Both the position numbers and the translations under genes were made by a program. Positions 34,182 to 38,903 of a stretch of DNA of 64,000 nucleotides are shown here, piece by piece (positions within the stretch are counted from its first letter, which is position 1; every line of letters begins with the position of its first letter). The stretch is from NCBI RefSeq assembly GCF_008365385.1, contig NZ_QOVF01000002.1, positions 124,001 through 188,000 on the forward strand, in the 5' to 3' direction. Under the pieces are notes generated by a model. It made no database searches. It saw only the letters and a program-made list of their open reading frames with translations, and was not told the DNA's origin. The stretch comes from Halopseudomonas laoshanensis. GTDB taxonomy: Bacteria; Pseudomonadota; Gammaproteobacteria; Pseudomonadales; Pseudomonadaceae.

Positions 34182-34619
34182 GTGCCCCACACCTTGCGGC
34201 TCACCACCCTGCTGGAGCGTGATTATCGCCAGCACGCACACCCTCTGCAGCAGCTCAAACAGCAACTGCCGCTGATTGATGAGCTGTGCCGAACATTGGG
34301 CGTCAGCACCTTTAGCAGCTTTATCGATATCAGCGCGATCGAATGGCAGGAAGCTGCACAACTGACCGGGCAGGATGCGAATAGCGTCGAAGCAGACCCC
34401 GAGACCGGTACGCCCCTGACCATCGAGGATCTCAGTTGGCACCCGGCCGCGCTGGGAATGGCCAGCCTGGAAGCCGTCAGCCAACACCTGCAGCGCGGCG
34501 AGAACCTGCGCTTTCAGGTTGAAGACGTAACCCCCCTGCTTACCGAACTGGCTGAATGCCTGGAACATCTGGCGCCGCTGGAAGCCGATGGCGGGCAGTT
34601 TCATTTTGCCGCAGCGTGA
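34182..34619 (+). CDS. hypothetical protein, 145 aa
   Basis: Starts at a GTG with GGAG at 34172-34175. It is predicted to be a mostly helical, acidic, soluble protein with no signal peptide or membrane segment. The segment GVSTFSSFIDISAIEWQEA and a tail of paired Leu/Glu helices are its visible features. I recognise no family. It follows the efflux operon by 37 bases and could be co-transcribed with it; nothing ties it functionally. Confidence 0.6.
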   Translation: MPHTLRLTTLLERDYRQHAHPLQQLKQQLPLIDELCRTLGVSTFSSFIDISAIEWQEAAQLTGQDANSVEADPETGTPLTIEDLSWHPAALGMASLEAVSQHLQRGENLRFQVEDVTPLLTELAECLEHLAPLEADGGQFHFAAA

Positions 34620-34742
34620 AACGCTTCAGAGCTCATAGCCGCCGGCCAGATTACCTTCCTTGCCCACCTGTCCTTGAACCATGCGTCGTTCACGCCACTC
34701 TATGTTTGGGTGACGGCGCCCTCGCGCTATGGCCGACGTCTC

Positions 34743-34771
34743 TTGAAATATAAAGGCCGCCAACATACTGT
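34743..34771 (+). promoter_or_regulatory. putative sigma-70 promoter of the BLUF gene
   Basis: TTGAAA (34743-34748), a 17-base spacer and TACTGT (34766-34771), about 50 bases before the BLUF start codon. The -35 box is close to consensus, the -10 box moderate. Confidence 0.45.
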
Positions 34772-34820
34772 CATAACGGCCTATGCTGGACGCATCGAAT
34801 CAAGGATTACCTGAACACCC

Positions 34821-35435
34821 ATGACTGATCTCATTCGCATCGTCTATATCAGCCGCGCGACCTTTGCCACTTCCAATCCTGCTGATGGGGTCGAGCCCAC
34901 TGTATCGCGTATTCTGTCCACTTCGCGGACCAACAATCGCAAGCATGGTCTGGTCGGCATGCTCTATTACGGTGATGGTTGTTTTTTCCAGTGTCTGGAA
35001 GGCGAAACGTCCAAGGTGCAAACCCTGTACAAGACGCTGCTGAAGGATTCGCGGCACAAGGATCTTAAAATTCTCGCCAGCGAACCGATCAAGCGGTTGT
35101 CTTTCCCTGACTGGTCAATGAAATACGTGCCCGTGGATCAGCACATGCGCAAGCTGCTTGAAGAGCATGGCTTCGAACAGTTTGACCCCTATCGCTTCGA
35201 TCACCACCTGGTTGAACGGGTTATGCAGTTGCTCCAGGGCGTACCGGATCCGACCATTCCTCCGGTCGAAGGTCGCGCCTCGCCTCCCGCTCGTACCTTG
35301 TTGGCTCCTGGTTTGGCAGCGCAACCGGACTCGCCGCCTTCAGCCAACGGCTCGGCCAAACTCAGCCTGGCGATCAGCATCGCTGCACTGGTCATCAGTG
35401 TTATCACCCTGCTGCTGGTGCTGAGCCGCCTTTAA
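34821..35435 (+). CDS. BLUF blue-light photoreceptor with C-terminal membrane anchor
   Basis: 204 aa. Residues 1-100 form a BLUF flavin-binding domain. Tyr9 (IVYISR), the Asn pair near 38-39 (SRTNNRKHG), Gln57 (FFQCLEG) and Trp98/Met100 (PDWSM) are the residues that bind FAD and carry out the light reaction in AppA-type proteins. After a helical cap and a Pro/Ser-rich linker (about 140-178), one hydrophobic helix (about 180-201) ends the protein, giving a tail anchor. No effector domain is present. It has its own putative promoter. Confidence 0.9.
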   Translation: MTDLIRIVYISRATFATSNPADGVEPTVSRILSTSRTNNRKHGLVGMLYYGDGCFFQCLEGETSKVQTLYKTLLKDSRHKDLKILASEPIKRLSFPDWSMKYVPVDQHMRKLLEEHGFEQFDPYRFDHHLVERVMQLLQGVPDPTIPPVEGRASPPARTLLAPGLAAQPDSPPSANGSAKLSLAISIAALVISVITLLLVLSRL

Positions 35436-35574
35436 ACCCACGCCGTTCTGACAGGCATTGTTGCCATGCATAACCCGGCGTTCGGGCAATGAATAACAAT
35501 CCTGGCACGGGCAATTCAGCCACTATTTGACATAGTATTCAGGCTGACCAGCTTACTTAGCCCGGGAGATTTGC

Positions 35575-36555
35575 ATGCCCCAGACAGAACATCAGATCCT
35601 TGATCTCAATGGTATCCAGCTCAGCCTTTACAGTGACGGGCCCACGCAGGGGCCGGTAGTGTGGCTGCTGCATGGATTCCCAGAATGCTGGTACTCCTGG
35701 CGGCATCAGATCAGCGCGCTGAGCGACGCCGGCTACCGCGTATTTGCCCCAGAAATGCGCGGGTATGGCGCCAGCAGCGCGCCTCATGATCCAGCGCAAT
35801 ATGATCTGATCACCCTGTGCGGCGACATTCAGGCAGCGATGGATCTACTCGGTCATACGCAAGTGGCCATGATCGGCCACGACTGGGGCGCACCGATCGC
35901 CTGGCATCTGGCGCTGCTGGAGCCAGAGCGCGTGAACGTCGTCGGTGCACTGTCAGTGCCTTTCGGCGGCCGCCCGAAAAAGCCGGCCATTGGCATGATT
36001 CGCGAGCTGTACCAGGATCGCTTCCATTACATGCTGTACTTCCAAAAGCCCGGGCTGGCCGAGGCCGAGATGGCTGAGGATATCCCGCGTACCATGCGCG
36101 TGATGATGCATGGCATGTCCGGCACCGCCGGCGGCAGCACCTTGGTACAGGACAAGCCAGCCGATGCGCGCTGGCTGGATGACCGTATCGACCCCGACGT
36201 GCCACCGCAATGGTGTTCACCGGAGGCGTTTCAGGTCTACGTGGAAACCTTTGAGCGCAGCGGCTTTCACGGTCCGGTGAATTGGTACCGCAATTTCGAG
36301 CGCAACTGGGAACGCACCGAGCCGTTAGCCGGCAAACAGATTGACCAGCCGGCCCTGTTTATTATTGGCGACGCCGATCCGGTAGGGGAGCTGGAAAGCT
36401 ACACCATCAAGAAAATGCCTAACGTTGTGCCGCGCGTGGAACAGCACGTCATCGCCAATTGCGGCCACTGGATCCAGTGCGAAAAGCCGGAAGCCATCAA
36501 CCAGCTGCTGCTGGAATTCCTCAATCGTGAATTTGCCCCGAAGGTGACCCCATGA
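35575..36555 (+). CDS. epoxide hydrolase (alpha/beta hydrolase)
   Basis: 326 aa, start with a GGGAG site 7 bases upstream. The oxyanion motif HGFPECWYSW, nucleophile Asp in GHDWGA, acid Asp in IGDADPV and base His in NCGHW form an epoxide hydrolase triad, with Asp rather than Ser as nucleophile. Cap-domain tyrosines that polarise the epoxide are seen in YMLYFQ and NWYRNFERNW. It would open an epoxide to a diol. The stop overlaps the next gene by 4 bases (ATGA), and that gene encodes a halohydrin dehalogenase-like enzyme whose product would be an epoxide. Confidence 0.9.
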   Translation: MPQTEHQILDLNGIQLSLYSDGPTQGPVVWLLHGFPECWYSWRHQISALSDAGYRVFAPEMRGYGASSAPHDPAQYDLITLCGDIQAAMDLLGHTQVAMIGHDWGAPIAWHLALLEPERVNVVGALSVPFGGRPKKPAIGMIRELYQDRFHYMLYFQKPGLAEAEMAEDIPRTMRVMMHGMSGTAGGSTLVQDKPADARWLDDRIDPDVPPQWCSPEAFQVYVETFERSGFHGPVNWYRNFERNWERTEPLAGKQIDQPALFIIGDADPVGELESYTIKKMPNVVPRVEQHVIANCGHWIQCEKPEAINQLLLEFLNREFAPKVTP

Positions 36556-37232
36556 CCCCCGCCGACTTGACTGGCAAACGCATCCTATTGACTCAGGCAG
36601 ACGCCTTTATGGGGCCGGCATTGCATGCCGTACTCAGCCGCTGCGGCGCGCAGGTAGTTGCGGACACTGGCAGCCTGGAGTCACCGGAAGCCGTGAACCA
36701 ACTCGTCAGCCGTTCTGGGCAAATTGATGTGCTGGTGGCCAATCTTGGCGTACCCGCGCCCTCTACCGCGGTGGTAGAGGTCAGCGATGACGAATGGCGC
36801 AGCATGTTTACCCATATGGTCGACCCGCTACAGCAGCTCACCCGCGCTATCCTGCCGGCGATGATTGAACGTCAACGCGGCAAGATACTGTTGATGGGCA
36901 GCGCTTCCGCACTGCGCGGCATGAAGCGCGCATCCAGCTACAGCGCCGCGCGTGGTGCGCAACTGGCGTATGTCCGCGCAGTGGGCGTGGAAATGGCCAG
37001 GCATAATATTCAGATCAATGCGATAGCGCAGAACTTCGTCGATAACCCCACGTATTTTCCTGCTGAGATCCAGGCCAAGCCGGCGTTTCAGGAGCGATTG
37101 CAACGTGAGGTACCCCTGGGTCGCCTGGTCTCCGCCGAAGAGGACGCACAGTTCGCCGCCTATTTATGCAGCGACGCAGCCAATTGTTTTGTCGGACAGA
37201 TCTTTCCCGTATGCGGCGGATGGGCGGACTGA
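36552..37232 (+). CDS. halohydrin dehalogenase-like protein (SDR-derived)
   Basis: 226 aa. It has an SDR fold but lacks the cofactor-binding GxxxGxG; the same position reads TQADAFMG, which is the T-x4-F-x-G halide-site motif of halohydrin dehalogenases. The catalytic triad is S-x12-Y-x3-R (Ser in MGSAS, then YSAAR), with Arg instead of the SDR Lys. NFVDNPTYFP also resembles the HheC active-site region. These enzymes convert vicinal haloalcohols to epoxides and halide without cofactor. It is translationally coupled to the epoxide hydrolase upstream. The alternative, an inactive SDR, is less likely because both diagnostic motifs are present. Confidence 0.82.
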   Translation: MTPADLTGKRILLTQADAFMGPALHAVLSRCGAQVVADTGSLESPEAVNQLVSRSGQIDVLVANLGVPAPSTAVVEVSDDEWRSMFTHMVDPLQQLTRAILPAMIERQRGKILLMGSASALRGMKRASSYSAARGAQLAYVRAVGVEMARHNIQINAIAQNFVDNPTYFPAEIQAKPAFQERLQREVPLGRLVSAEEDAQFAAYLCSDAANCFVGQIFPVCGGWAD

Positions 37233-37302
37233 GTCGCCGCGATACTCGCCGGCCGTCGGCTAATGCTCTACGCATCTTGACGTACACCCTCTGGCTCGCC
37301 AT

Positions 37303-37341
37303 GTTAAGGCAGATGGCTTTATGCCATTTAACACCTTTTTT
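37303..37341 (+). terminator. terminator of the epoxide hydrolase-dehalogenase operon
   Basis: GTTAA (37303-37307) pairs with TTAAC (37328-37332), and ATGGC (37313-37317) with GCCAT (37323-37327), with a five-base bulge on the left arm and a TTTAT loop. Six Ts follow at 37336-37341. It lies 70 bases after the dehalogenase stop. Confidence 0.6.
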
Positions 37342-37398
37342 GCTGAACCGCTGTCACGACCGTGGCAGCCTCGTCAATCTCGATGAGTCCACTGCCCC

Positions 37399-38097
37399 AT
37401 GAATGCGCAATGGCTGTTTTCATCGCCAGCTTTTACCTCGCTGTTGCTGGTCATTCTGGTGCTCGCCTGCACAGGCTGCCTGGTGCTTTTCTATCGCACC
37501 CGAGCCTTGATACTGCAGCGTGACGAGGCCAACTCGGCAGCAGAGATGAGCCTGATCCAGTTGCGCAAGGCGACGCATCTGGATCAGTTGACCGGTCTTT
37601 TGTCACGTCAACGCCTGACCGAAATCGCCCAGGCTGAAATTACCCGCAGCCGCCGTTACGGGCACCCGCTGAGCGTGGTGTGTATGGATATTGACCATTT
37701 CAACCAGATCAATCGCGACCATAGCGACAAGGTTGGAGATGCCGTATTGACGGGACTGGCGCGCATGGCTCAAGCAATGACTCGACAGTCTGACGCAATC
37801 TGCCGCTGGAACGGCGGTGCGTTTCTGCTGGTGCTGCCGCACACCAGCCTGGAACAGGCCCTGGAGCTGGGCGAGAAACTGCGCAGACAAACCAGTGAGG
37901 CCGAACTGCTGGTCGACAATCGCATCAGCGTCAGCGTCGGTGCGGCCAGCCTGAGCTCTAAAGAAAGCTTCGAAAGTCTGACACGCAGGGCGGAAAATGC
38001 GTTGCAGCAGGCGAAAAGCGAGGGCCGCAATTGCTCCCTTGGCCACCACAGTGCAGAAGATGCCCATCACCTGAACGCCCAGTTCACCGGTAGCTGA
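37399..38097 (+). CDS. membrane GGDEF-domain protein with degenerate active site
   Basis: 232 aa. One N-terminal membrane helix (about 11-33) precedes a complete-length GGDEF domain (about 58-215). Conserved framework is seen (DQLTGLLSRQR, MDIDHFNQINRDHSDKVGD), but the signature position reads RWNGGAFLLVLP, so the catalytic Asp/Glu pair of GGDEF is lost. It is unlikely to make c-di-GMP and may instead bind GTP or c-di-GMP or act through protein contacts. The DNA is not otherwise damaged, so this is not a simple pseudogene. Confidence 0.85.
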   Translation: MNAQWLFSSPAFTSLLLVILVLACTGCLVLFYRTRALILQRDEANSAAEMSLIQLRKATHLDQLTGLLSRQRLTEIAQAEITRSRRYGHPLSVVCMDIDHFNQINRDHSDKVGDAVLTGLARMAQAMTRQSDAICRWNGGAFLLVLPHTSLEQALELGEKLRRQTSEAELLVDNRISVSVGAASLSSKESFESLTRRAENALQQAKSEGRNCSLGHHSAEDAHHLNAQFTGS

Positions 38098-38195
38098 GCC
38101 CCCGCTCTATTAACCGGCCTGATAGCAGTCCATCAGGCTGAAAAAAGTCTCTGTGCAAGGCGTATCATGGAGCTCCAGCCAGAGCGGAGCCGACC

Positions 38196-38903
38196 ATGCA
38201 AGAGCACCAGATTATTATCGCCAAGCGTTTCTGCGGCCCACCCCAGAGTGGCAACGGCGGCTACGTAGCCGGCTTGCTGGCCAAAGCCATGGGCCGGCCA
38301 TGCCAGGTGACGCTGCACGCGCCGCCGCCGCTTGATACCCCGCTACGGCTGCTATCTGTAGCAGAAGGCCTGCAATTGCTGGACGGCGACTTGCTGCTGG
38401 CGACCGGCAAGGACTACCAATTGCAGATGGCCGCACCCCAGCCGCCGGAGCTGGCTAGCGCACTGAGTGCCGAAAGCCGTTATGAAGGGTTTCAGGATCA
38501 CGGTCTGCCTAATTGCTTTGTCTGCGGTCCGCTGCGCGAGGCCAGTGACGGGTTGCGGATTTTTGCCGGTCCGCTGGACGCTCAGAAGAATCAGGTGGCC
38601 GCTGTGTGGCAACCCGATGCGACGCTGGATGATGGAACGGGGATGGTCGCCAGCGAGTTTGTATGGGCTGCTTTGGATTGCCCCGGTTTCTTCGCCGTCA
38701 AGCACGCGTCAGGTACCGCCCTGCTCGGGCGGTTTGCTGCACGTTTGTTAGAACCGGTGGCGATAGGTGAGCGTTTGATCGTCAGCGGTTGGGCGCTTGG
38801 TCACGACGGGCGCAAACACCAGGCCGGTACCGCCCTGCACCGCCAGGACGGCACGCCTGTCGCCCTGGCCGAAGCGACCTGGATCAGCCTGAAGCAGGCG
38901 TGA
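38196..38903 (+). CDS. hotdog-fold (thioesterase-like) protein
   Basis: 235 aa soluble protein. The opening (RFCGPPQSGNGGYVAGLLA), the middle CFVCGP with HGLPNCFVCG, and WAALDCPGFFAV followed by LGRFAARLLEPV resemble uncharacterised double-hotdog thioesterase-like proteins. A CoA-thioester substrate is plausible but unproved; no catalytic residue can be assigned with confidence. It is convergent with speA, and a hairpin lies between the two stops. Confidence 0.65.
   Translation: MQEHQIIIAKRFCGPPQSGNGGYVAGLLAKAMGRPCQVTLHAPPPLDTPLRLLSVAEGLQLLDGDLLLATGKDYQLQMAAPQPPELASALSAESRYEGFQDHGLPNCFVCGPLREASDGLRIFAGPLDAQKNQVAAVWQPDATLDDGTGMVASEFVWAALDCPGFFAVKHASGTALLGRFAARLLEPVAIGERLIVSGWALGHDGRKHQAGTALHRQDGTPVALAEATWISLKQA

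Follow-up and report, generated by a model that had tools for sequence, protein, structure and literature searches.

An epoxide hydrolase gene and a halohydrin dehalogenase gene form a conserved pair in Halopseudomonas that may convert haloalcohols to diols

Two adjacent genes of Halopseudomonas laoshanensis probably encode consecutive steps in the conversion of haloalcohols to diols. They lie within a stretch of 64,000 nucleotides (NCBI RefSeq assembly GCF_008365385.1, contig NZ_QOVF01000002.1, positions 124,001 to 188,000 of the forward strand), which is called the window below and in which all positions are counted from the first base. According to our reading, to which we assign a probability of roughly 0.8, an epoxide hydrolase gene and a D-type halohydrin dehalogenase (HHDH) gene that follows it constitute a two-gene unit for these consecutive steps, and the dehalogenase joined a hydrolase that was already resident. 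The enzyme is not new, since both its subtype and this type of operon are known, and the pairing is real and conserved. What appears to be new, judging from genome comparisons, is the genus-wide distribution of the pair and the status of the hydrolase as a resident and not a dedicated partner. Both open reading frames (ORFs), together with the 4-bp overlap between them, were found as originally predicted:

35575..36555, + strand: predicted epoxide hydrolase, an alpha/beta-hydrolase of 326 amino acids resembling EphA and soluble epoxide hydrolases (ORF; Pfam Abhydrolase_1; solved relatives)
36552..37232, + strand: predicted halohydrin dehalogenase of the D subtype (HheD), 226 amino acids (motifs, scores, predicted fold)
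36552..36555, + strand: ATGA, 4 bp, in which the hydrolase gene ends and the dehalogenase gene begins (sequence)

The original prediction had set the 226-residue protein apart from ordinary short-chain dehydrogenases/reductases (SDRs) by two motifs and by the absence of a glycine-rich cofactor motif, and the sequence agrees with it in each respect. The first motif reads TQADAFMG (T14-x4-F19-x-G21) and fits the pattern T-x4-F/Y-x-G that defines HHDHs (PMC11976700), and the Ser-Tyr-Arg triad described for these enzymes (PMC4989007) corresponds to S117, Y130 and R134, which are invariant across a 23-row alignment. A motif check of the protein revealed neither a glycine motif of the TGxxxGxG type nor S-x12-Y-x3-K. 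Its catalytic motif is S117-x12-Y130-x3-R134, and S-x12-Y-x3-R, as stated in the original prediction, is the spacing found in HHDHs. Because both motifs are present in 107 of 108 HHDH-like rows, their occurrence is not due to chance. All eight classical SDRs pulled for comparison have the glycine motif; the selection of their frames favoured that motif, so this is a description and not a test.

Similarity scores, phylogeny and predicted fold point in the same direction. In phmmer comparisons, the protein matched the solved HheD2 (PDB 7b73), an enzyme of the same subtype that has both motifs, with 317 bits over its full length, versus 85 bits for the best ordinary SDR (FabG). A-type HHDHs reached only 76 bits, below the best FabG, and the result of being nearer to HHDHs than to SDRs is thus limited to the B and D types. 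In a tree with classical SDRs, which the original prediction had asked for, the protein was split from all eight of them with a support of 100 and with long-branch warnings. It was placed inside a supported group (SH-like approximate likelihood ratio test, SH-aLRT, 99) with HheD2 and a triple mutant of HheD8 (8xxb), and HheB was outside this group; the HHDH trees contained no HheA, HheC, HheE, HheF or HheG reference. Structure alignment (VIA-align) found the predicted fold to be nearest to HheD2, the best match, followed by HheB and HheD8; the four best structural rows were all HheD or HheB, and the next was about 3.5 Z units lower. It is extremely improbable, then, that we are dealing with an NAD(P)-dependent SDR of the ordinary kind whose cofactor site has degenerated: the HheD2 score exceeds that of the best classical SDR by about 230 bits, Y-x3-R replaces Y-x3-K and motif 1 replaces the glycine motif, in addition to the separation in the tree and the structural ranking. 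By sequence, motifs and predicted fold, the product of 36552-37232 is a D-type HHDH. Two other observations were made among its relatives. The HheD-like protein of Plasticicumulans acidivorans (L078:6001-6657) has a leucine at the position of the motif-1 threonine, and three proteins with HHDH motifs (L163, L164 and L165), 39-45% identical to the query, form a separate branch outside the HheB and HheD rows and are perhaps another HHDH subtype.

The prediction of an epoxide hydrolase partner was likewise borne out. The product of 35575-36555 is, as far as alignments can tell, an epoxide hydrolase similar to EphA and mammalian soluble epoxide hydrolases (sEH), with its catalytic residues complete. 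These are the nucleophile D103, the cap tyrosines Y155 and Y238, the acid D268, which aligned with the sEH Asp, and the base H298; there is an HGFP motif at position 33, and Pfam Abhydrolase_1 was matched. D103, Y155, Y238, D266, D268 and H298 are identical in 35/35 Halopseudomonas orthologues compared, with or without a dehalogenase in the genome (the partial match in genome G017 was excluded). Among solved structures, the closest are those of M. tuberculosis EphA (5cw2, 270 bits) and the mammalian sEH (about 239 bits), which show the same catalytic residues in alignments; a haloalkane dehalogenase scored far lower (62 bits), as did Cif-like proteins (97 bits or less). We know of no HHDH partner for EphA or mammalian sEH.

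The two genes differ in their distribution. Among 37 Halopseudomonas genomes, 22 contain the dehalogenase (E value 5e-97 or better), and the best matches in the other 15 (1e-17 to 4e-21) are like those of other SDRs. The hydrolase was detected in 36, including all 15 that have no dehalogenase (with the partial match in G017 counted), and the sole genome in which it was not found, G015, is 81% complete. An order sample of 195 genomes, each 90% complete or better, included eight other members of the family, presumably Pseudomonadaceae; five of them have the hydrolase (E value 1e-90 or better) and none has the dehalogenase (1e-40). The claim that the hydrolase is a dedicated partner must therefore be dropped, since it is present in all dehalogenase-free genomes of the genus and in most of these family members. 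The suggested rarity of HHDHs holds in part. At 1e-40, HheD-like proteins turned up in 8 of 369 other genomes of a class sample, which agrees with rarity at that level, and in 17 of the 194 others in the order sample, but they are common within the genus, and relatives of HheD12 have already been reported in all marine members but one of the Pseudomonas pertucinogena lineage (PMC6922532). HheD12, from H. (Pseudomonas) pelagia CL-AP6, is a 90% identical orthologue of the 226-residue protein. It was described in Schallmey 2014, according to PMC6922532, and the linkage between HHDH and hydrolase may already have been noted there. PMC6922532 covers the enzyme and its spread, and the term epoxide hydrolase is absent from its main text. 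In a collection scan, from which the best 80 of 343 relatives were taken up, most of the close relatives that came from named genomes belonged to entries titled Halopseudomonas or Pseudomonas.

In 17 of the 22 genomes, the dehalogenase gene lies right behind the hydrolase gene on the same strand; it is nearly linked in one (G028) and located elsewhere in four. Adjacency kept in 17 genomes of the genus is beyond chance. The 4-bp overlap occurs in 4/17 linked pairs, and the remaining 13 have gaps of 14 to 69 bp. The HheD12 orthologue, too, directly follows the hydrolase with the same overlap (L003 and L031). Same-strand arrangement and close spacing (-4 to +69 bp) conserved in all linked genomes suggest that the pair is transcribed as one operon. 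Protein distances of dehalogenase and hydrolase were correlated (r 0.92), as were those of dehalogenase and speA, an arginine decarboxylase gene of the same region (r 0.88); 0/5000 permutations gave values as high. These correlations were calculated for 15/17 linked genomes, with G020 and G014 dropped because their regions have no speA. Relative to the nearest relative (G026), the ratio of nonsynonymous to synonymous substitution rates (dN/dS) was 0.073 for the dehalogenase and 0.055 for the hydrolase; three other comparisons also gave values below 0.1, at dS of about 0.8 to 2, too high for these values to be trusted. The pair has thus been passed on jointly and kept under purifying selection, apart from some losses and a single split.

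Concerning its origin, the hydrolase gene would be the older resident. Of 38 regions taken from 35 genomes, 34 contain the hydrolase; speA was in the same region in 29/34, and in the other five the hydrolase was near contig ends. The dehalogenase would have arrived directly behind the hydrolase in an ancestor of many Halopseudomonas species, the pair being inherited since then. That the dehalogenase gene joined a resident hydrolase gene and then descended vertically with losses is probably correct and is the simplest account, in which we infer the direction of the change. In the dehalogenase tree, the linked genes cluster with the G028 gene and a single Lysobacterales row (SH-aLRT 86), and forcing the 18 linked or nearly linked genes into one clade caused no loss of likelihood (approximately unbiased test, p-AU 0.619). 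The four Halopseudomonas dehalogenases without linkage fall into a separate clade (SH-aLRT 99). A separate second acquisition of these four was considered, but all 22 as one clade could not be rejected (p-AU 0.587), and two acquisitions are therefore not claimed. Since constrained trees outscored the quick free search in both topology tests, from which seven rows (L159-L165) were omitted, the free tree is not optimal. At their different location, the genes of this distinct HheD clade (L019-L022) have no hydrolase adjoining; upstream of the unlinked dehalogenase in L021 and L022 is a gene of the LigT / 2'-5' RNA ligase family.

The chemistry of HHDHs and epoxide hydrolases is well established and suggests how the two proteins could act in sequence; the activity and substrate of each are what we infer from such relationships. 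A vicinal haloalcohol would be held in the dehalogenase by S117 and would lose its hydroxyl proton to Y130, whose pKa would be lowered by R134, and the resulting alkoxide would displace the halide into a pocket of T14, F19 and G21, yielding an epoxide in a reversible step. D103 of the hydrolase would then attack the epoxide, whose oxygen would be polarised by Y155 and Y238, and H298 with D268 would activate water to release the diol, a step that would in effect be irreversible. Irreversible hydrolysis would pull dehalogenation forward and keep the reactive epoxide low. A similar argument has been made for HheC, whose gene shares an operon with an epoxide hydrolase gene in Agrobacterium radiobacter (PMC11976700). 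It is also conceivable that the dehalogenase in vivo mainly works in reverse or with other nucleophiles, nitrite, cyanide or similar ions opening the epoxide, in which case the hydrolase would compete with it and not follow it. Such nucleophiles are indeed used by HHDHs in the reverse reaction, and other physiological functions were considered possible in a review, given that few HHDH genes adjoin an epoxide hydrolase gene (PMC4989007). However, a hydrolase expressed alongside would remove the epoxide and so oppose ring opening by nucleophiles, and the pair contains no gene for their supply, so we regard this direction as improbable.

The Agrobacterium operon follows the same two-step logic, but its HHDH is of the C type (PMC11976700). 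According to a 2016 review, just two of the HHDH genes known at the time shared an operon with one for an epoxide hydrolase (PMC4989007). PDB 1ehy scored 64 bits against the Halopseudomonas hydrolase, compared with 270 bits for EphA. Provided that 1ehy is the hydrolase of the Agrobacterium operon, as we presume, the Agrobacterium and Halopseudomonas pairs look independently assembled, because the two hydrolases are only distant relatives. No relative of the Halopseudomonas hydrolase was found in the 1.5-kb flanks of the HheD2 locus (L155, whose protein matches 7b73 unchanged in the tree).

Several observations weigh against the haloalcohol-to-diol unit, or against parts of it. In G028, a 655-codon ORF on the opposite strand, which reads like a chemotaxis receptor gene, lies between hydrolase and dehalogenase, and the dehalogenase persists. 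G015, G024, G027 and G029 have the dehalogenase at a different locus, and no hydrolase was found in G015. Linkage is therefore not essential. In addition, a consensus scan over 34600-38200 detected nothing promoter-like on the coding strand and, downstream of the dehalogenase stop, nothing terminator-like before the next gene begins, so that spacing is what co-transcription is judged by. With regard to descent, the Lysobacterales dehalogenase (L092), which has no hydrolase within 6 kb, sits among the linked ones in the tree, and loss from an older pair, as an alternative to gain behind the hydrolase, is not settled because the speA tree (30/37 genomes) is weak at depth; in that tree, the nearest relative of G028, G018, has the same gene order without the dehalogenase. 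Finally, a relative of the hydrolase occurred in 0/86 loci outside the genus at an E value of 1e-5 or better (best 0.018) within the available flanks, which extended up to 6 kb but were close to zero on short contigs. HheD genes are thus kept without the hydrolase in the DNA examined at these loci, 69 of which came from the collection scan and 17 from the order search.

Alternatively, the two genes could be neighbors with unrelated substrates, the hydrolase being a general detoxifier, e.g., of lipid epoxides, and the dehalogenase merely sharing its transcription unit. The retention of the hydrolase in all genus genomes without the dehalogenase would fit such an arrangement, as would the dehalogenases that do without it outside the genus and at the four other loci within it, and the lack of any neighbor family in more than 5/92 same-strand neighbors scanned. 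Against it stands the fact that, among all positions available to it, the dehalogenase follows an epoxide hydrolase in 17 of 22 genomes, which are deeply diverged; moreover, the chemistry fits consecutive steps, for which the HheC operon is a precedent. We consider unrelated substrates fairly unlikely. For the haloalcohol-to-diol unit, a role in detoxification or carbon use, as was proposed originally, is plausible. A wider halo-organic gene set was not seen: the tryptophan-halogenase family was found in 0/37 genus genomes at the family cut-off, and a type II haloacid dehalogenase was above its cut-off in 3/37, with the H. laoshanensis genome below it (76.7 vs 125.4 bits). A literature search found no paper on an HHDH combining the terms bromoperoxidase and marine.

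A terminator closing the pair had been part of the original prediction and is not supported. A 7-pair hairpin at ~37311-37329 is followed some bases farther on by a T run, but the stretch is no more stable than expected (z -0.41; 63/200 shuffles were at least as stable); there may be a weak terminator. The pair is similar in G+C to its surroundings and is flanked by the following genes:

34821-35435, + strand: BLUF-domain gene (PF04940, blue-light sensor), upstream of the hydrolase (Pfam)
37399-38097: GGDEF gene, downstream of the dehalogenase (Pfam)

Beyond the GGDEF gene are an ORF without a Pfam match and then, on the opposite strand, the arginine decarboxylase gene called speA. The BLUF gene is also found upstream of the hydrolase in the dehalogenase-free genomes G016, G021 and G023.

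We also searched for a conserved HheD partner outside the linked group, and this candidate was rejected, as no Pfam family exceeded 5/92 same-strand neighbors. These neighbors (95 amino acids or longer, gap below 250 bp) came from 90 loci, the 86 outside the genus and the four unlinked Halopseudomonas loci; eight loci from the class search (L166-L173) were outside the counts. They were called by a simple length-and-GC caller, and some may be shadow frames. Two to three of these 92 neighbors matched general alpha/beta-hydrolase families. The HMGL-like lyase family accounts for 5/92, one example being the same-strand gene behind HheD at L040:6770-7672. Among 72,556 plasmid records in PLSDB, one matched the dehalogenase at an E value of 1e-30 or better, a Novosphingobium protein with 44.5% identity.

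It is possible, although we would rate it below even odds, that the haloalcohol-to-diol operon has been built at least twice from different parts, once with HheC in Agrobacterium and once with HheD and an EphA/sEH-like, resident core hydrolase, and that the breakdown of biogenic haloalcohols is the true job of this HheD branch. If so, retention across Halopseudomonas would point to biogenic haloalcohols, such as bromohydrins from algal hypobromite chemistry, as substrates, a role left open in the HHDH literature. HHDHs are used in biocatalysis, and their natural role is unclear. The genus provides a natural experiment, with the hydrolase alone, the hydrolase plus the dehalogenase, a split pair, the dehalogenase elsewhere, and near relatives with and without the dehalogenase. 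This makes the physiological question of what a hydrolase neighbor means for an HHDH a testable one.
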